64,000 nt of DNA, from assembly GCA_024280835.1 (NCBI GenBank), contig JAJRPJ010000008.1, positions 147,730-211,729 of the forward strand. Direction: 5' to 3'. Source of the DNA: Candidatus Zixiibacteriota bacterium. GTDB taxonomy: Bacteria; Zixibacteria; MSB-5A5; GN15; JACZUZ01. The translations under genes and the position numbers were made by a program. Shown here piece after piece: positions 47,505 to 56,655 of the stretch (within the stretch, counting starts at the first letter, position 1; each line of letters starts with the position of its first letter). Below the pieces are notes generated by a model. It searched no databases, was not told where the DNA came from, and saw only the letters and a list, made by a program, of their open reading frames with translations.

Positions 47505-48714
47505 CAAGGGCCACCTTCGGAAGCATGTTCATCTTTGCCATATCCGCCATTTTCATTCCTGCCATGGGTTTAACCATACGCTCTTCATCTGGCAGGTCTT
47601 CATAAGCCAACACCAGCAGATTACCACCAGGATAGAGTCCGTTGTTGGTTACTCGCCTAGTGTCATGATCATGGAAAGTCCACAAACCCCTGTTCGTGCC
47701 TTCAATCACCATATCCAGCGTTTTTCCGGGGCTGAGCCGCAGGGTGTTCATTTGCTGTGGTTGTGGCAATGGAATACCATCATCACACACCAACCAAAAA
47801 TCGTGACCATGTAAATGGAGATAGTGTTCTTCGGTGCCGGCGTTGATAAGTCTAACTCGGATCTTTTCCCCAGACCGAATTCCCAGATTGGGAGTATTGG
47901 GGTATGAACTACCGTTTACTGTGAACCAATTCGGTTGCGGCAGTTGCGCCGAGGAACGACGATTGGTTAGATATGGAGGTTGATAGCCTTCATCAATCGC
48001 ATTTTTCAACTCCTGCTTTGAATCAAAGAGTGAGAATCTCTTGGCATCGAACCGTCCGTTCTTCATCAGGTATCTGCGCTCTTTCATTCTATCGAGCATA
48101 CCATCTAGCTCATCTCGCAAGAAATTTACATCATGCGCCGAGTAGATGAGCGTATATTCTCTATCATAGTCAAAGCGTTTTTTAATGGGGTCATCATCAT
48201 CTTCAACAATAAGACTGCCGTACATTCCAGCCTGCATATGCAGGAGTGTTCCCCAGTGGCAATGATAGAAGTGTGTTCCATAGGGTTGCGCTTCAAATTC
48301 GTAAACAAACGTTTCACCGGGCATCACTGGCATTTGGGTGACATACGGAACTCCATCCATGCGCCAAGGGACATACATCCCATGCCAATGAATCGTGTGA
48401 TTCAATTCGGTTCGGTTCTCAAAGAGAACTCTCACTTTGTCACCACGCTTTACCCTGATTTCAGGTCCAGGAACAGAACCATTGAATGCCAGCGTATGAA
48501 TGACCATGCCAGGAGCTAGCTCCTGGCGAGCAATATCTATGTAGAGTTTGAACTCTTTAGTATCACCAGATATGGTCGGTTTCAGCGGTTTCGGAAAACG
48601 CTTTGGAGCTACCACACCAGTTTGCGCCAACAGAGGTGTCGCACCCAGAGCCGCTAGTCCCACAGCTCCGGCGGCGACACTACCAGACAGCGCCAAGAAA
48701 TCCCTTCGTTTCAT
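47497..48714 (-). CDS. Multicopper oxidase, two-domain type with Met-rich tail
   Basis: About 405 residues from ATG at 48714 with GGAGAG six bases upstream. A Tat signal MKRRDFLALSGSVAAGAVG shows export in folded form. Copper motifs in order: HWHGM, HCHWGTLLHMQAGM, HLHGHDFW and HDHDTRR. The Cys-His-Met type 1 set lies in the first cupredoxin domain, while the last motif has Asp where laccases have Cys. The C-terminus is Met-rich (MAGMKMADMAKMNM), fit for Cu(I). It probably oxidises Cu(I) or another metal or phenol in the periplasm. Confidence 0.88.
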   Translation of the reverse strand: MKRRDFLALSGSVAAGAVGLAALGATPLLAQTGVVAPKRFPKPLKPTISGDTKEFKLYIDIARQELAPGMVIHTLAFNGSVPGPEIRVKRGDKVRVLFENRTELNHTIHWHGMYVPWRMDGVPYVTQMPVMPGETFVYEFEAQPYGTHFYHCHWGTLLHMQAGMYGSLIVEDDDDPIKKRFDYDREYTLIYSAHDVNFLRDELDGMLDRMKERRYLMKNGRFDAKRFSLFDSKQELKNAIDEGYQPPYLTNRRSSAQLPQPNWFTVNGSSYPNTPNLGIRSGEKIRVRLINAGTEEHYLHLHGHDFWLVCDDGIPLPQPQQMNTLRLSPGKTLDMVIEGTNRGLWTFHDHDTRRVTNNGLYPGGNLLVLAYEDLPDEERMVKPMAGMKMADMAKMNMLPKVALDE

Positions 48715-48801
48715 GAAACTCTCCCCTTTTTGAGCTTTAGTCAGCCCTAGTAAAACGTTACTAAGACTCCCATGTCTCATAGCTATACGCTACAGTCGTA
48801 C

Positions 48802-48843
48802 GCCGAGTTCCGGAATCGCATTTATGCGAAATAGAAACCCGAC
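48802..48843. repeat. REP unit linked to RAYT (copy 1, diverged)
   Basis: 42 bases: GCCGAGTT (48802-48809), inner dyad CGCAT/ATGCG, and AACCCGAC at the right end (48836-48843). It matches the REP at 51504-51545 in order and spacing. It lies three bases before the TAA of a decayed RAYT tail, as in the intact copy. Confidence 0.8.
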
Positions 48844-48846
48844 AAC

Positions 48847-48972
48847 TTACTCACCATAGCGCTCTTCTTCTTTGACTTCTTGATAGAGCCAGTTTTTTTC
48901 ATACATCCCTCGTTCAAAGTAATTATGCAGAGAACTGTATGGGTAGTCAAACGGTTTTTTGACCCGTCCATG
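48847..48972 (-). pseudogene. 3' remnant of a REP-associated transposase (RAYT)
   Basis: About 41 codons translate to HGRVKKPFDYPYSSLHNYF then ERGMYEKNWLYQE and a tail ending EERYGE plus TAA. This matches the C-terminus of the intact RAYT at 51549 (HGLVKNPFDYPHSSLHTYF, ERGMYEKNWRYQE). The homology stops abruptly upstream and an in-frame TAG follows within ten codons, so the rest of the gene is gone. Confidence 0.8.
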
Positions 48973-49000
48973 TATTGCTTGTGGAATTGTCTGCTAATAA

Positions 49001-49024
49001 ATGGGTTCGTTTTGCATATAGGGG
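49001..49024. repeat. Direct repeat copy A (24-base core)
   Basis: Core ATGGGTTCG..GCATATAGGGG, identical at 49566-49589 and 50482-50505. Copies A and C each directly follow a RAYT remnant; only the core and part of the GT-rich flank are kept here. Confidence 0.7.
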
Positions 49025-49073
49025 GGGTGGGATGTGGATGTTATAGTGATTTTGTAGTGATTTTGTTTGGTTC

Positions 49074-49529
49074 TTAGGAGTTGAGGCGTAGGTCGATGTC
49101 TAGCCATTGCATGTCGTTCTTATCGCCGATGTATTCGAGGAGGACGGCTTGTTTGTTGAAGCCAAGTGTTTGGTAGAACGCGATGGCCGTTTTGTTCCAT
49201 GTGGCGGTTTGGACACAGAGGATGCGCGCATTTTGTTCCCTGGCTTTTTTGATAATGAAAGCTATTAAGTCATTGCCGATTCCTTTGCGCCTTTGAGATT
49301 CTGAAACTGCTAGGTGGTCGATCATGTGGATTTGGTTCCAGCGAGGCCCTGAGAGTGAGACAAGGCCAGTGATCTGTTCAGCGTTGTCTACTGAGACGTA
49401 GATTTGGCCTGCGTAGTTTTCGAATTCGTCAAGTACGGTTTGTGTGTCTCGTTCGCCATTGAGGTAGGTATCGAGAATCCTGACTGAATCGAAATCGTGG
49501 CTGAGGTTTAGGGGGCGGATTTCTTGCAT
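49074..49529 (-). CDS. GNAT-family N-acetyltransferase
   Basis: About 152 residues from ATG at 49529 (MQEIRPLNLSHDFDSVRIL). Acetyl-CoA binding motif A is visible as ESQRRKGIGNDLIAFIIKKA (Q/RxxGxG/A), with preceding strand IHMIDHLAV and later ARILCVQTATWNKTAIAFYQTLGF, the usual GNAT end. The substrate is unknown. A TTG at 49565 inside the adjoining direct repeat would add 12 residues. It is embedded in the RAYT/REP patch and may be acquired. Confidence 0.88.
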   Translation of the reverse strand: MQEIRPLNLSHDFDSVRILDTYLNGERDTQTVLDEFENYAGQIYVSVDNAEQITGLVSLSGPRWNQIHMIDHLAVSESQRRKGIGNDLIAFIIKKAREQNARILCVQTATWNKTAIAFYQTLGFNKQAVLLEYIGDKNDMQWLDIDLRLNS

Positions 49530-49565
49530 GGGCGGAAGGTAGGTAGGTTCAATGGTGTTGTGCAA

Positions 49566-49700
49566 ATGGGTTCGTTTTGCATATAGGGGCGTGTGGGATG
49601 TGGATGTTGTAGTGGTTTTGTTTGAGTTTTCGGTTTGGCTTGGTTGTGTTAGTGAGTTGTTTCATCACTTATGGGGGCGGTGGGGAATTTGTGGTGGGTT
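49566..49700. repeat. GT-rich direct repeat copy B
   Basis: About 135 bases similar to 50482-50618 in the same orientation: the 24-base core, then GTGTGGATGTTGTAGTG, GGTTGTGTTAGTGAGTTG and CACTTATGGGGGCGGTGGGG in the same order. Small gaps and substitutions separate the copies. No reading frame of note. Confidence 0.7.
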
Positions 49701-49735
49701 GGTGGAGATTTTGTATGCGTGAAGGGCTGACTAAT

Positions 49736-49753
49736 CCCACCCCAAGGGGTGGG
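49736..49753. terminator. GC-rich palindrome at the end of the 4-TM gene
   Basis: CCCACCCC (49736-49743), AA, GGGGTGGG (49746-49753), followed by GCACCCGTCCTAC. It is nine bases beyond the stop of the leftward gene at 49763. It may act as terminator or be another REP-type unit; no T run is present. Confidence 0.4.
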
Positions 49754-49762
49754 GCACCCGTC

Positions 49763-50218
49763 CTACATGAATAGAATGAATATCCAAAAAACTCCTCCAA
49801 CACCAATCAATAATTGAGTCGCGCCAGAAATGCGCACCATTTTACACCAACGCGGAATTTTGGAGTAATGTCTAAATTTTAGTGCTGTTTCTAAGATTTT
49901 AGCCTGGTCTCTGAAATGATTCCAAAATTTGGTAATTCGTAATTCTATTACAAAGAATACCAAAGATGTCAAAATTCCGATGCTAACTAAGCAAATTCGG
50001 AGGTCACCTGTGATCTTCGGATCACTTGTGAAAATAACTGACATCAATCCAGCGCTAAGAGCGAAGTAGAGTGTTAGTTGAGCAAAGCGCAGTTTGGAGT
50101 AATGACGCATATTCTCCGCAACAATCTTGTATTCCTCAAGTTTGAGTCCGTTTTCTCCGTTGTCCAAATGTGTCTTCTCCCATGATTTAGCGCTAATGAG
50201 CGCCAAGCCATAATTCAT
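49763..50218 (-). CDS. Small four-helix membrane protein of unknown function
   Basis: A 151-residue protein. After a charged N-terminus (about 1-40, KLEEYKIVAENMRHYSKLRF) come paired helices (about 45-63 and 72-92), a charged loop (RITKFWNHFRDQAKILETALK) and a final helix (about 128-150). I recognise no family with confidence; small membrane proteins of this shape occur in accessory loci. It stands alone within the repeat-rich patch. Confidence 0.6.
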   Translation of the reverse strand: MNYGLALISAKSWEKTHLDNGENGLKLEEYKIVAENMRHYSKLRFAQLTLYFALSAGLMSVIFTSDPKITGDLRICLVSIGILTSLVFFVIELRITKFWNHFRDQAKILETALKFRHYSKIPRWCKMVRISGATQLLIGVGGVFWIFILFM

Positions 50219-50378
50219 AGTTAAGGTAGTTCTGCGCTCCCGACTTTTTTATTTCCTTCATCAGCTTTGAGTCAATTGAGCTGTCTGTTATCAGAGACAT
50301 CAGGAGCGTATGGCTCCTAGCCAACCTACCTGGTTCCTGAAACCGAGACGAACGTACCGGCCACCCAGCCCAATCCTA

Positions 50379-50459
50379 TTCATACAATCCCCACTCAAAG
50401 TAATTATGCAGAGAACTGTGAGGATAGTCAAACGGATTCTTGACAAGGCCGTGTTTTGC
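50379..50459 (-). pseudogene. Second 3' remnant of a RAYT gene
   Basis: 27 codons read AKHGLVKNPFDYPHSSLHNY then FEWGLYE, nearly identical to residues AKHGLVKNPFDYPHSSLHTY and FERGMYE of the intact transposase at 51549. Both flanks diverge at once. No REP unit remains on its downstream side. Confidence 0.8.
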
Positions 50460-50481
50460 TTGTTGAGCTGTCTGCTGACAA

Positions 50482-50618
50482 ATGGGTTCGTTTTGCATAT
50501 AGGGGGTGTGGATGTTGTAGTGATTTTGTTTGGTTGGCTCAGTTTGGTTGTGTTAGTGAGTTGTTTCGTCACTTATGGGGGCGGTGGGGATTTTGTGGTG
50601 GTTTGGTGGGGAATTTGT
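50482..50618. repeat. GT-rich direct repeat copy C
   Basis: Counterpart of 49566-49700 in the same orientation, directly following the second RAYT remnant. It begins with the same 24-base core and ends with GGGGGCGGTGGGG and further GT-rich sequence. Confidence 0.7.
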
Positions 50619-50670
50619 GCAATGGGTGAGAAGAAACATCGGAATGGATTATGCGAGAGAGATGTTAATT

Positions 50671-51420
50671 TCAAGGCCAATCAGGCAATTTGGATTTAGC
50701 AATAATTCGTAATATAAAAGGAGTCGATAGACAAATTACAGCTATTGCGAGGGGTAACATACCTGGAAGCGACTCGAAGATACCTGAACGAGCAATAATC
50801 AGCAACATGGGGATTAGTCCATAGGTGTAAGCATAGATGTAGAGCGTTTGCTTAGCATTAGTAGGAAGCTTTCTTATGATGCTCCAAGTATGAATTTCTT
50901 TATCGTAAAATAAATGGAAGCTGTAAGAAGACCCTTTGTCAATAACTCTGTAGCTCTTGAATGGGAAAATTGGGACATACAATATAATGCACCATTCCGT
51001 AGTCAAATATGACCCATCAGGCAGGAAATCTCTCTTACCATGAAATTGGGTTCCTATTCCAAAAAAATTATCTATCTTTGTTATCATAGCAGTGTCTAGT
51101 ACGCTGTGCTTCTTTTCGTTAATTTCAATTCTATCCGAATTGTTTTGCCTCTTTCTCGCTTCAGCTGACCTACGTAACCATTTTGCCTTTTCAGTAGCCA
51201 GATATGAGGATGTAGTCTCTAAGTCTTCATCTGAATAGGGCTCTCCTAGGTCCATCCCATTCTTAATCAACCAGCTCCTATAGGTATCAACGCTAGCCTG
51301 AGAGTAATCTGCAGGAATTTCAATGAAGACTTGACGACATGAGCTACACTTGTACTTTTCACCGTATCCCTTCGCATACACTTCTTTGTTACAATTTGGA
51401 CAATTAAACTTGATAGCCAT
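50671..51420 (-). CDS. Zinc-ribbon membrane protein of unknown function
   Basis: A 249-residue protein. An N-terminal zinc ribbon (CPNC at residues 8-11, CSSC at about 26-29) is followed by a helical charged region, a conserved-looking segment GIGTQFHGKRDFLPDGSYL with TTEWCIILYVPIFPFKSYRV, and two C-terminal helices (about 195-215 and 220-242). The segment with GxGTxxxGKR and W..PxFPxKSYR recurs in other bacterial membrane proteins as I recall, but no function is known. ATG with GGAGAG upstream. Confidence 0.75.
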   Translation of the reverse strand: MAIKFNCPNCNKEVYAKGYGEKYKCSSCRQVFIEIPADYSQASVDTYRSWLIKNGMDLGEPYSDEDLETTSSYLATEKAKWLRRSAEARKRQNNSDRIEINEKKHSVLDTAMITKIDNFFGIGTQFHGKRDFLPDGSYLTTEWCIILYVPIFPFKSYRVIDKGSSYSFHLFYDKEIHTWSIIRKLPTNAKQTLYIYAYTYGLIPMLLIIARSGIFESLPGMLPLAIAVICLSTPFILRIIAKSKLPDWP

Positions 51421-51503
51421 TTTGCTCTCCCATAAGTGTTGAACTATTGTTCCACGTGTACACTTCGACTAGATTTGTAAATCACAAATTACGCAGATCG
51501 TAG

Positions 51504-51545
51504 GTCGGGTTCCGGAGTCGCATTCATGCGATGTAGAAACCCGAC
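51504..51545. repeat. REP unit downstream of RAYT
   Basis: 42 bases with outer arms GTCGGGTT/AACCCGAC and inner arms CGCAT/ATGCG. It ends three bases before the TAA of the transposase and is inverted relative to the REP at 52056-52097, with a few mismatches. Confidence 0.9.
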
Positions 51546-51548
51546 ATT

Positions 51549-52070
51549 TTACTCACCGAAGCGCTGTTCATCTTTGTCTTCTTGATAGCGCCAATTTTTT
51601 TCATACATCCCTCGTTCAAAGTAAGTATGTAGGGAACTGTGAGGATAGTCAAACGGATTTTTGACAAGTCCGTGTTTTGCAGGATTGTAATGGATATAAT
51701 CTAAATGACGATTCAAATCTTGCTCGTCACGGATGACATGCTCCCAAAAACGGTTTTGCCAGACTTTGCCAGAGCGGACTTTGTCTCTGATTTGTCTTGA
51801 GAAGGAGATTTTGAAGGCGTGCATGACTTTTGAGATAGTTTCGTTCTCTAAGGTAAGCATTATGTGGAAGTGGTCTGGGAGGATTACCCATGCGTCTAGG
51901 GGGCGACTTTTCCAGCATTGGTGAAACAAGGATGTGTTTTCGGCTAGTAGTGGTTCTCTGTTGTTGGTTATTGCTGTTATGAAATATGTGGCTCCTGGTA
52001 GGTTATGTCTGCGTAGGGTTTTCATTTGTTGGTTGTGTTTGTTTTTTGGGGAGATGTCGGGTTTCTGCAT
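51549..52070 (-). CDS. REP-associated tyrosine transposase (RAYT, Y1_Tnp/IS200-like)
   Basis: A 173-residue HUH single-strand transposase. The HUH motif is DHFHIM (residues about 65-70) and the catalytic Tyr lies in HLDYIHYNPAKHGLV. Further family marks are NLPGATYFITAITNNREPLL, KVWQNRFWEHVIRDEQDL and FDYPHSSL. The first ATG (52070) lies within the 5' REP; a second in-frame ATG at 52025 (MKTLRRHNLPG) is also plausible. The gene is bracketed by inverted REP units, the classic RAYT arrangement in which the protein mobilises REPs. Confidence 0.93.
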   Translation of the reverse strand: MQKPDISPKNKHNQQMKTLRRHNLPGATYFITAITNNREPLLAENTSLFHQCWKSRPLDAWVILPDHFHIMLTLENETISKVMHAFKISFSRQIRDKVRSGKVWQNRFWEHVIRDEQDLNRHLDYIHYNPAKHGLVKNPFDYPHSSLHTYFERGMYEKNWRYQEDKDEQRFGE

Positions 52071-52097
52071 CGCATGAATGCGATTCCGGAACCCGAC
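52056..52097. repeat. REP unit upstream of RAYT
   Basis: 42 bases with arms GTCGGGTT/AACCCGAC and inner CGCAT/ATGCG. It is the inverse of the unit at 51504-51545, followed by CTACGG on the outer side. The transposase ATG at 52068-52070 falls inside it. Confidence 0.9.
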
Positions 52098-52129
52098 CTA
52101 CGGTTTTGAATCCGTACATACACTCTTGT

Positions 52130-53611
52130 TTATAGGTACTTTTTGAATCTTTCGGCTATGGTTTGTTTTACTTCTTCGGTCATTATTATGTCGGTGGGCC
52201 ATTCTCTGGTGTAGCCTTCTTCGGGCCAGTGGCGGGTGGCGTCTATGCCCATTTTGTGGCCGACGGCGTTCATTTCGCCAGCGTGGTCTAAAATATCTAC
52301 TGGGCCTTGGACAATTTCTATGTCACGTTTGGGGTCGACATTGTTGCCCCAGCGCCACATGACTTCATCGACGTTTTGCACATCGGTTTCTTCATCAACC
52401 ACGACAATATATTTGGAGAGACACATTTGGCCTGTGCCCCAGATTTGGTGCATGACTTTGCGGGCGTGATGTGGGTATTCTTTTTTGATTTTTAGGAATA
52501 AGAAGTTATGGAAATTGCCGAACATGGGCATGTTGTAGTCAATCAATTCGGGCATTTGGATTTTTAGCAAAGGTAAGAACAAGCGCTCGGTGGCTTTGCC
52601 AAGGTAATAATCTTCTTGTGGTGGTTTGCCGACGATGATGGTTTGGTAGACGGGATTCTTACGGTGGGTGATGGCTGTCACATGGAAGACAGGGAACTCG
52701 CCAGCGAGTGAGTAGACGCCAGTGTGATCACCAAATGGTCCTTCGGTGCGGCGCTCTTCGACATCGACATAACCTTCAATCACAAAATCAGATTCGGCGG
52801 GGACGCGTAGGTCAACGGTTTTGCACTGGACCATGCGGACGGCTTTTTTGCGAATGAATCCAGCGACTAACATCTCGTCCATGCCTGGAGGTAGTGGCGC
52901 TGTGGCGGAATAGGCGCAAGCAGGGTCGCCGCCGATTGCGCAGGCGACTTCGATACGTCCGCCTTTTTGTTCGTATTTGCGGAAATTGAAGGCGCCGTCA
53001 TGGTGCGGGTGCCAGTGCATGCCAGTTGTGTTTTTGTCGTAGACTTGCAGGCGGTACATGCCGCAGTTTTGCACGCCAGTGTTGGGGTTTTTGGTGAAGA
53101 CTTGGGGCATGGTGATGAAACGACCTGCGTCATCGGGCCAACATTGAATCACGCCGAGTTTGAAGATGTCGATCTGGTCGCCTTCGAGGACGACATCTTG
53201 GCAGGGCGCGGAGTTGACCATCTTGGGCATATTGCTGGCGGCTTTGGCGAGGACGGGAAGCTCTTTGAGCTTTTCCATGGTGGACATGTATTTGCGGGGT
53301 TTGACTAGATCTGAAAGTTCATCTGCGATATTTTCGAATGATCTGCCGCCAAAGGCGATGTTCATGCGTTTGAATGAGCCAGTTGAGTTGATTAGCACGG
53401 GAAAGTCTGAACCCTCGACGTTTTCGAAGAGCAGGGCTTTGCCGCCGTAGTTTCCCTGGGCGTCGCGCATTTTTGAATGACGGTCGGCCATTTCGGCGAT
53501 TTCGAGGATGGGTGAGATTGGCTCGGAGATGCGGAGTAATTCGCCCTCGGCCTCTAGCTCACGGATGAAGTCCGCGAGGTTTTCTATATTGTATGATTTA
53601 TTTGTGTTCAT
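52130..53611 (-). CDS. ubiD: UbiD-family decarboxylase (quinone biosynthesis)
   Basis: A 493-residue prenylated-FMN-dependent decarboxylase. N-terminal LADFIRELEAEGELLRI, then GGKALLFENVEGSDFPVLIN, the RRTEGPFGDHTGVYSLAGEFP segment with the catalytic acidic residues (E..R..E region), and the C-terminal MNAVGHKMGIDATRHWPEEGY. It probably decarboxylates an aromatic precursor in ubiquinone or menaquinone synthesis; no UbiX is nearby to narrow this. ATG at 53611 without a strong ribosome site. Confidence 0.9.
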   Translation of the reverse strand: MNTNKSYNIENLADFIRELEAEGELLRISEPISPILEIAEMADRHSKMRDAQGNYGGKALLFENVEGSDFPVLINSTGSFKRMNIAFGGRSFENIADELSDLVKPRKYMSTMEKLKELPVLAKAASNMPKMVNSAPCQDVVLEGDQIDIFKLGVIQCWPDDAGRFITMPQVFTKNPNTGVQNCGMYRLQVYDKNTTGMHWHPHHDGAFNFRKYEQKGGRIEVACAIGGDPACAYSATAPLPPGMDEMLVAGFIRKKAVRMVQCKTVDLRVPAESDFVIEGYVDVEERRTEGPFGDHTGVYSLAGEFPVFHVTAITHRKNPVYQTIIVGKPPQEDYYLGKATERLFLPLLKIQMPELIDYNMPMFGNFHNFLFLKIKKEYPHHARKVMHQIWGTGQMCLSKYIVVVDEETDVQNVDEVMWRWGNNVDPKRDIEIVQGPVDILDHAGEMNAVGHKMGIDATRHWPEEGYTREWPTDIIMTEEVKQTIAERFKKYL

Positions 53612-53727: not shown

Positions 53728-56655
53728 CTACTTGATAGTCACGTTTGATGTATCTGAACCACCTGAGGTCGAAGTCACAGTGACTGTGGCTGGAGCTGAG
53801 TTTACTCCCGTGATTTTCAATTCCCAACGATTCTTGCTGGCCTTGAAGGTCATTTGGCCGTAGCCAACCACGCTCAAGACTGCGTTTGGATCGTCAGTTG
53901 TTGCGCGAACATCCAACTTCTGTTTGCGACCGTCATACTGTGCTTTGGTGATTGTGACGACGTCGCCACCTCCACCGCCGCCAGTGATGTCAGCAGAAGT
54001 AGTCGCTGAACCTGTGGCGCCTTGGTCGTCGGTAACTGTTAGCGTGACGGTATAGTTACCCGTTGCGCTATAGGTGTAGTTCGGATTCGCGGCGGTACTT
54101 GTTCCGCCGTCGCCGAAGTCCCAACTGTAACCGACAATTGTTCCGTCTGGATCAGAAGCACCAGCGGATGAGAACGAGACTGCATTGCCAAGTGTGGCGC
54201 TGTATGGGCCATTGACGCTAGCAGTTGGCGCCTGATTGCCACCACCACCGCCAGTGATATCGGCAGAAGTTGATGCAGAGCCTGTAGCTCCTTGGTCGTC
54301 AGTAACCGTTAGCGAGACAGTATAAGTACCTGTTGCGCTATAGGTGTAGTTTGGATTCGCGGCGGTACTTGTTCCACCGTCGCCGAAGTCCCAACTGTAA
54401 CCGACGATTGATCCGTCTGGATCAGATGACCCAGCGGATGAGAACGAAACTGCACTGCCAAGTGTGGCGCTGTACGGGCCATTGGCATTGGCTGTCGGGG
54501 CTTGGTTACCGCCACCGCCGCCTTGAGTGACTGTTACAGCTACGCTCGGTTTGTACCGTGTGCCATTATTGTCCTTGATTTCACCTTTCCAAGTCCAATC
54601 AACCAAATTGGAAGGCAGGCCGCTCAGTGCAAATGCAGCGGTCCAGGTTCCATCGCCATTATTCGTGAAGTTCACACGAATTCTGGTACCGTTGGCGTCT
54701 CTCATTTCCCAACGCTCTCTGCTCATGTTGGTGAAGTCAACTTGGTCGCTCCACATCTTCATGTACATCGTCTCGCTAACGTCGAATGTACGATCGTCGG
54801 TCGAGAGGTCAGCATTTCGCGAAAGGATGAATCCTTCGCCAGATGGTGGCGGAGGTGGAGGTGTGTTGGCTGTGATGTATCCAACCTTTGTCATGGTGTT
54901 TGAACCATTGGCATTGGTTGCGATCATTGAGACATCGTATGAGCCAGCGTTGGCATATGTATGTGATGGGTTTTGCGCGGTTGAAGTTGCGCCATCACCA
55001 AAGTTCCATGACCAACTGGTAGGTGCGTTGGTTGAAAGGTCACTAAAGCTGACTGCCAAAGGAGCGTCACCAGTTGTTGGACTTCCAGAAAAATCAGCTG
55101 TTGGTGGGTTCGTATTCGGAACTGTGATAGTCGCAGTAGTCGAATTTGAACCTGTTGCGCTTTGGTCATCAGTGACTGTCAATGAGACACTGTATGAACC
55201 AGCGGCGGAATAGGCATAGCTCGGGTTGGCTGCGGTACTTGTGCCGCCGTCGCCGAAGTCCCAACTGTAGCCAGTGATTGTTCCGTCTGGATCAGATGAG
55301 CCAGCCGACGAGAAGGAAATGTTGTTTCCGACTAGAGCGCTGTATGGGCCATTGGCATTGGCGGTTGGCGCTTGATTGACAGGTGGGCCAACGTTTGTTG
55401 CGGCATCGGCGTTAACCAAACCGAATCCGAAATTGTTGTCACGTCCAGTAGCGCCGATATCGGTTGCTGTTGATGTCAACTGATTACGAACTGCTGAAGC
55501 GGATGTAAACTGACCTGTTGACCAGATGAGCGCCACTACTCCAGCGACGTGAGGTGTTGCCATACTTGTGCCGTCTAGTGTGGCATACTGACCATTCTTA
55601 TAAGTCGAGACAATTCCCACACCTGGGGCAGTGACTTCAACTTCTGGGCCTTTGTTGGAGAAATTCGCCAGATTGTTTCCTTGGTCGACAGCCGAGACAG
55701 CAATTGTCGAGGAATACTTAGCAGGAAATCCAACGGGACCACCAAAGTCATTTCCAGCCGCGGCACAGATTACAACACCAGAAGCGTAGGCGTTGTCGCA
55801 GGCGGTTTGAAGCGCGTTCGTGCCGATTGAGGCGCCGAGAGACATGTTGACAACATCCATTCCATTTGCAGCAGCCCAATCAATTCCGGCGACTACATTG
55901 GAGAATGTTCCGCTACCGGCTGCATCAAGCACTTTGATACCATAGAGACTGACAGATGGGGCCACGCCAATAACACCAATACTATTGTCGATAGCGCCGA
56001 CGGTACCTGAGACATGCGAACCATGACCGTTGTCATCCATTGGATCATTGTCATTGTTCACATAGTCGATACCGCTGACATAGTTTGCCGCAAGGTCTGG
56101 GTGACCGTGGTCGATTCCGGTATCAATGATTCCAACTTTTACTCCAGAACCTTTTGTTCCACGAGCATGAGCGGTTGGCGCATTGACTGCGGTTATGCCC
56201 CACGGAACAGTTTGGGCAATCATGTGCACAGGTCTATCTGGCTCGATGTAATCGACACTAGGGTCGTTCATCAGGAGCTGATATTGACCTTCGGTCAATT
56301 GCGCGGAGTAGCCATGTATAACAGAGCTATATACTTTTTGTGGTACGACACCCGCGATAAGGGCGGACTTTGTGATGTCCTGCTTTACGCGTTTGAAGAG
56401 ACCGTTGTGTTTCTTACCAATTTCACTTGTTGTTTTTAGGACGACTATATACTGCCCAGGGATGACATTGGGATCATCGATTTGCTGTCCAATTGAGGTG
56501 TTGGATTGGCTGGTCGGTTCAAGTGGTTGTTCTTGAGAACATCCATAGATGCCGAAACTTGCCGCCAATAGAAGGAATGTGAATACGCTTGAAGATAAGC
56601 GAAGAAACGAGGTGGATCGTTTCTGCGTAATTCTTAGTGAATAACGTTGACGCAT
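53728..56655 (-). CDS. Subtilisin-like serine protease (S8) with I9 propeptide and four PKD domains
   Basis: A 975-residue exported protease. The N-terminal hydrophobic segment ends in a lipobox-like GIYGC (about 39). An I9 inhibitor propeptide (about 65-140: GQYIVVLKTT) is followed by the S8 domain: Asp in GIIDTGIDHGHPDL (about 177), His in NGHGSHVSG (about 210), Ser in GTSMATPHVAG (about 362). PKD domains lie at about 425-510, 515-595, 715-800 and 805-890, each with SWDFGDGGTST or similar. An unrecognised domain fills 600-710. Strong AAGGAGAA ribosome site. Confidence 0.94.
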   Translation of the reverse strand: MRQRYSLRITQKRSTSFLRLSSSVFTFLLLAASFGIYGCSQEQPLEPTSQSNTSIGQQIDDPNVIPGQYIVVLKTTSEIGKKHNGLFKRVKQDITKSALIAGVVPQKVYSSVIHGYSAQLTEGQYQLLMNDPSVDYIEPDRPVHMIAQTVPWGITAVNAPTAHARGTKGSGVKVGIIDTGIDHGHPDLAANYVSGIDYVNNDNDPMDDNGHGSHVSGTVGAIDNSIGVIGVAPSVSLYGIKVLDAAGSGTFSNVVAGIDWAAANGMDVVNMSLGASIGTNALQTACDNAYASGVVICAAAGNDFGGPVGFPAKYSSTIAVSAVDQGNNLANFSNKGPEVEVTAPGVGIVSTYKNGQYATLDGTSMATPHVAGVVALIWSTGQFTSASAVRNQLTSTATDIGATGRDNNFGFGLVNADAATNVGPPVNQAPTANANGPYSALVGNNISFSSAGSSDPDGTITGYSWDFGDGGTSTAANPSYAYSAAGSYSVSLTVTDDQSATGSNSTTATITVPNTNPPTADFSGSPTTGDAPLAVSFSDLSTNAPTSWSWNFGDGATSTAQNPSHTYANAGSYDVSMIATNANGSNTMTKVGYITANTPPPPPPSGEGFILSRNADLSTDDRTFDVSETMYMKMWSDQVDFTNMSRERWEMRDANGTRIRVNFTNNGDGTWTAAFALSGLPSNLVDWTWKGEIKDNNGTRYKPSVAVTVTQGGGGGNQAPTANANGPYSATLGSAVSFSSAGSSDPDGSIVGYSWDFGDGGTSTAANPNYTYSATGTYTVSLTVTDDQGATGSASTSADITGGGGGNQAPTASVNGPYSATLGNAVSFSSAGASDPDGTIVGYSWDFGDGGTSTAANPNYTYSATGNYTVTLTVTDDQGATGSATTSADITGGGGGGDVVTITKAQYDGRKQKLDVRATTDDPNAVLSVVGYGQMTFKASKNRWELKITGVNSAPATVTVTSTSGGSDTSNVTIK

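Follow-up and report, generated by a model that had tools for sequence, protein, structure and literature searches.

A tnpAREP gene between inverted, GTAG-tagged REP hairpins in a Zixibacteria genome

The closest described system is the REPtron of E. coli (TnpAREP/yafM, PDB 4er8; group 2, subclass 2.2), in which unlike REPs, Y and Z2, both of them parts of BIMEs, flank the tnpAREP gene (PMC2817692). REP families often exceed 100 copies (PMC2817692). In vitro, GTAG, an unpaired bulge and two bases of the lower stem matter to the E. coli TnpAREP, and the upper stem is needed while its sequence is not (PMC8266576). RAYTs are described as low in copy number, little alike from copy to copy and vertically inherited (PMC6006769, PMC8049555), and as domesticated (PMC8049555). 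Two other kinds of element also carry a Y1 transposase: the TIRtrons or TIRYTs (Di Nocera 2013, PMC3733652), whose gene lies between long inverted repeats, and the IS200/IS605 insertion sequences, which have subterminal hairpins and a guide-like tetranucleotide.

We analysed a stretch of 64,000 nucleotides from a Candidatus Zixiibacteriota bacterium (the whole of it is called the window here), and observed a tnpAREP gene framed by two REP units. The features are listed below.

51549..52025, minus strand: tnpAREP (RAYT) gene, 158 aa, Y1/HuH transposase (NF047646, 136 bits; Y1_Tnp; 4er8; start as in homologues)
51549-51551, minus strand: tnpAREP stop codon
52070, minus strand: start of the mechanically called open reading frame of tnpAREP
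51504..51545, plus strand: REP unit 3' of tnpAREP; foot GTCGGGTT/AACCCGAC, internal loop, upper stem GTCGCAT/ATGCGAT
51500..51503, plus strand: GTAG tag (guide tetranucleotide) of the downstream REP
52056..52097, minus strand: REP unit 5' of tnpAREP, inverted; upper stem ATCGCAT/ATGCGAT
52098..52101, minus strand: GTAG tag of the upstream REP (CTAC on the plus strand)
51500..52101: probable complete REPtron, tag to tag, 602 bp, from its 49-nt terminal inverted repeat
48802..48843, plus strand: degenerate solitary REP of the same family; tag GTAC, foot with two mismatches

The full inverted repeat around tnpAREP, tags included, was 49 nt long and 96% complementary, with its arms 506 nt apart and GTAG on the outer side of both REPs. 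The first-pass annotation had described 42-nt units in opposite orientation around the gene, and these are present, exact for the arms it gave, at 51504-51545 (plus) and 52056-52097 (minus). Its interval of 51504-52097 was right for the units and left out the tags at 51500-51503 and 52098-52101; the 602-bp extent from tag to tag agrees with the unit duplicated in a related genome (G044, see below). The 3' unit had been said to end three bases before the stop codon, but the gene is on the minus strand and the unit begins 3 nt after it. An ATG does lie inside the 5' unit (52068-52070), as had been noted; it is probably not the start, since homologues begin at the ATG at 52025-52023 (MKTLRRHNLPG...).

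When folded as single-stranded DNA, both units formed an 8-bp foot, an internal loop and an upper stem (z = -3.8 and -4.5; 0 shuffles were equally stable). A scan of the window with the REP pattern, allowing up to three mismatches, gave three matches against 0.13 expected, namely the two REPs framing tnpAREP and the degenerate unit at 48802-48843. Elsewhere in the window, positions 53728-56655 encode a subtilase with an inhibitor I9 propeptide and several highly similar PKD domains.

The reading of the protein as an intact RAYT transposase was borne out. It scored 136 bits against the NCBI REP_Tyr_transpos model NF047646 (cut-off 80) and was over the cut-off for Pfam Y1_Tnp, and the sole solved relative found for it was the E. 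coli TnpAREP (PDB 4er8, E 4.4e-24). The HuH motif (DHFH) and the catalytic-tyrosine motif (YIHYNP) were intact. The GTAG-contact residues named for the E. coli protein (PMC6006769, PMC8266576), i.e. W94, Q95, E100, H101 and R104, were identical in the stretch WQNRFWEHVIR of the 4er8 alignment. The window protein ends in FGE; among full-length relatives of more than about 38% identity, nearly all have F/YGE at the C terminus. In the tail of the E. coli TnpAREP, G160 and E161 contact the last two bases of GTAG (PMC8266576), and we infer that the FGE tail is their equivalent. Subclass 2.2 motifs have been tabulated as DHLH, WE and YIHYNP (PMC6006769); the window protein has DHFH and YIHYNP, and the tabulated W motif may correspond to either W of WQNRFWEH. 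The GTAG-contact residues, the C-terminal GE and a long REP interrupted by a bulge or mismatches are group 2 features, and the element is most likely a complete REPtron of the group 2 type (subclass 2.2-like). The earlier description of the system as complete and probably active can be kept for completeness; present activity of the window TnpAREP is plausible, judged by its uninterrupted reading frame and its conserved residues. The window REPtron is single-copy, and no recent duplicate of it was found. A horizontal gain of the window tnpA from outside the family was not established, as a clade joining it with same-family homologues was not rejected (p-AU 0.27).

The window element thus resembles the E. 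coli REPtron in its protein family, in its GTAG tag with matching contact residues, in its long REP with an unpaired section and in the position of the gene between inverted REPs. It differs in its foot (GTCGGGTT, not that of E. coli), in having tens of units and not hundreds, in its two ends of one type (E. coli has Y plus Z2), in a lineage outside Proteobacteria-type hosts, and in the whole-REPtron copies found in its relatives. A TIRtron or TIRYT was ruled out: the ends here are GTAG-tagged REPs, whereas TIRtron ends are unrelated to GTAG REPs (PMC3733652). An IS200/IS605 insertion sequence was rejected as well, the protein scoring 24.5 bits against the NCBI IS200 model NF033573 (cut-off 55); unlike in that family, the hairpins are mutually inverted and REP copies are scattered.

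We then looked at the REP units beyond the window. The genome that contains it (3.3 Mb in 20 contigs; G000) held 19 palindromes with exact TCGGGTT/AACCCGA arms, compared to one for the reversed control, and about 25 units at up to three mismatches, occurring singly and as inverted pairs. The further copies on which the first-pass annotation had staked its claim therefore exist. A genome of the same genus (a sister species, G001) had about 48 units of the window type. The roughly 25 units seem few for a REP family, and we counted this against the best explanation.

Across about 70 units from these two genomes, the foot was near-invariant (GTAG-GTCGGGTT-CCG...AGA-AACCCGAC, with the next base nearly always A), whereas the upper stem occurred in 49 forms and was paired far more than shuffled letters. 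A set of 17 distinct units, all equally long, showed no variation in the foot, and two-sided changes in six of the seven upper-stem pairs. Pairing of the upper stem in these units reached 99.6% of cells (90.1% in shuffles, 26-49% when slid). The rows had been selected for an upper stem of 7 bp, and this inflates the pairing percentage; the two-sided changes do not arise from it. Because the foot is fixed and the upper stem covaries, the CGCAT/ATGCG dyad is one variant (of the 49) of a stem whose sequence is free. The recognition sequence, which had been taken to be the 42-nt unit, should probably be read as the tag, the foot and the internal loop, and the freedom of the upper stem agrees with the in vitro work on the E. 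coli TnpAREP. Class-wide, the strict foot-plus-loop pattern was present in 39 of 132 genomes, with quite different upper stems (reversed control, 0). The outer eight bases do not suffice as a diagnostic: the Sedimenticola/Nitrospirae REPtrons (L093, L117, L118), which carry GTCGGGTTAGC...GTAACCCGAC, have the same tag and outer eight base pairs as the window, but an inner AGC...GT in place of CCG...AGA and proteins only 40-48% identical.

The foot was inherited together with the protein clade. We read the GTAG hairpins at the ends of 78 tnpAREP genes from this genome and its relatives. The GGGT foot was found at 16 genes, all in one clade of 19 (support 99/98), and at none of the 59 outside. 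The three remaining members, missed by the automatic reading, carried altered versions of the same foot when read by eye, so that foot and clade coincide in 19/19 inside and 0/59 outside. On the tnpAREP tree, three foot-type changes were needed, compared to 14.6 with shuffled labels. The feet of the sister groups were GTCGAAA, GGCAG, GTCAGGA or GTCAAG.

The occupancy of REP sites also differed between the two species, so that neither finding that the first-pass annotation had named as refuting it (no further copies, or every site occupied in all relatives) applies. At all four G001 sites where both flanks could be aligned, the unit was absent from the matching site in G000; these four are all the testable sites, and the comparison is between species and does not distinguish gain from loss. 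At a fifth place, both species had units. In the reverse comparison (G000 units against G001 sites), conservation of the flanks was too low for an alignment. The UbiD gene beside the window REPtron is kept in G001, where no transposase follows it, with synteny on one side only.

Movement of the complete element could be seen in relatives. In G044 (a single contig), two REPtrons of the GTCGAAA type, at C1:108-765 (L076) and C1:903441-904098 (L211), were 99.7% identical over 658 bp with unrelated flanks, and their identity ended 7-11 nt outside the GTAG tags. As judged from the alignment, this pair is a recent duplication of the whole unit, with breakpoints just outside the tags, in a relative that has another foot type. 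In G052, REPtron units 90% alike were found at two places. A REPtron of G032 (L080) and one of G052 (L217), which belong to two different genera, were 92% alike and had unrelated flanks; the UbiD gene, by comparison, reaches only about 80% between members of a single genus. This suggests horizontal movement, with contamination possible in these draft genomes as in G044. Since near-identical or 90-92% alike copies sit in unrelated flanks, whole REPtrons have most likely moved in this order.

These results bear on the alternative that has survived best, i.e. that the transposase is domesticated and housekeeping-like, the REPs are static terminators or mRNA stabilisers, and any movement is ancient. 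The published description of RAYTs fits it. The units are intergenic and their RNA forms fold well. No known RNA family in Rfam matched across 48500-53000. Of the eight tnpAREP genes in G000, seven score above the family cut-off; leaving the window gene aside, five have clear counterparts in G001, and synteny of the flanks was seen for at least one of these (L171/L176). However, neither the window tnpAREP nor the GTCGAAA-type gene L172 had a G001 counterpart in the tree, REP sites differ between the species, and a whole REPtron has moved recently in G044. We therefore regard this alternative as unlikely.

The seven tnpAREP genes of G000 besides that of the window (L172-L178; contigs C3, C6, C7, C8 and C10) are highly divergent, and most have inverted palindromes of their own.

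Two group-2-like genes of G001 (L169, L170) were absent from G000. When units and genes were compared, G001 was found to hold its roughly 48 window-type units without a gene of the window clade, and so that gene is not required for keeping them, a point that we counted against our main reading. G000 likewise had eight exact GTCAAG-type units (C6, C10, C11, C12, C13, C14 and C18), and the matching gene was found only in G001; both genomes are drafts, 96-97% complete, and a missing gene could sit in a gap. Each of the two species thus retains one kind of REP for which the transposase was found in its sister alone.

Neighbouring units were arranged in a regular way. In G000 and G001, 19 of 21 neighbouring pairs were head-to-head, with GTAG outside and typically 20 nt apart. 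We assigned the hairpins to types, partly by eye, for these 19 and two further pairs. Exactly one type A hairpin (TCNCATTCATGNGA-like stem) was present in 20 of these 21 head-to-head pairs, and none had two. The probability of such unlike pairing by shuffling was 2.5e-5, or 2.5e-4 without likely local duplicates; pairs copied from one another are not independent. The pairing of A with non-A is a trait shared with E. coli, where REP pairs join the unlike kinds Y and Z. Both ends of the window REPtron are of type A and are separated by half a kilobase. In our own reading, two equal hairpins 20 nt apart would form an unstable long palindrome.

The pairs also speak to a somewhat less probable alternative, in which the element is an insertion sequence that has terminal inverted repeats and travels chiefly as one piece, the scattered REPs being left over from its ends or formed as by-products of them. 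The anatomy of the window REPtron from tag to tag would suit this, as would the near-identical copies in G044 and the 90-92% alike copies in G052 and G032/G052. But REP units far outnumber REPtrons and mostly stand in regular pairs about 20 nt apart without gene remnants, the pairs join unlike types while the two ends of the window REPtron are alike in type, and as a rule there is one gene per foot type in each genome. We consider this improbable. Lastly, intergenic palindromes are common, but chance or unrelated hairpins or terminators beside a stray transposase gene are ruled out by the three matches against 0.13, the 19 palindromes against one in the control, and the tie between foot and clade.

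Our main reading, to which we give a probability of about 0.85, is that the element is a REPtron in which a group-2-type TnpAREP gene has its own REP hairpin on either side, the two copies being inverted and their tags facing outward. When such a site becomes single-stranded (e.g. at a replication fork), each REP unit would fold into a hairpin. TnpAREP would bind the GTAG tag, the lower 8-bp stem and the adjoining unpaired CCG/AGA, with an upper stem that must exist and may have any sequence. The tyrosine of YIHYNP would then presumably cut near the tag, and cleavage could lead to REPs and REP pairs being copied or moved to intergenic sites and, occasionally, to movement of the complete REPtron. 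The cleavage chemistry and the part played by single-stranded DNA in this scheme, like activity of the window copy today, are conjectural.

Every part of the window REPtron is already known, and the element is of a known kind. A broader proposal, which we put forward tentatively and at somewhat less than even odds, is that the group-2 REPtrons of this lineage are undomesticated and move whole within and between genomes, that each protein clade reads a foot of its own, conserved across the class, that short-spaced pairs must be of unlike types, perhaps owing to the instability of a perfect long palindrome, and that REPs outlive their transposases. The lineage offers a natural experiment in recognition, in which one protein clade goes with one fixed foot and dozens of free upper stems. 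The sister clades have other feet (as given above), and swapping feet would put the code by which TnpAREP reads them to the test. The ends of the element can be told from the near-identical pair in G044, which bears on how REPs and REPtrons spread. Finally, a species pair that shares REP types and not the matching transposases provides a test of whether REPs survive the loss of their enzyme.
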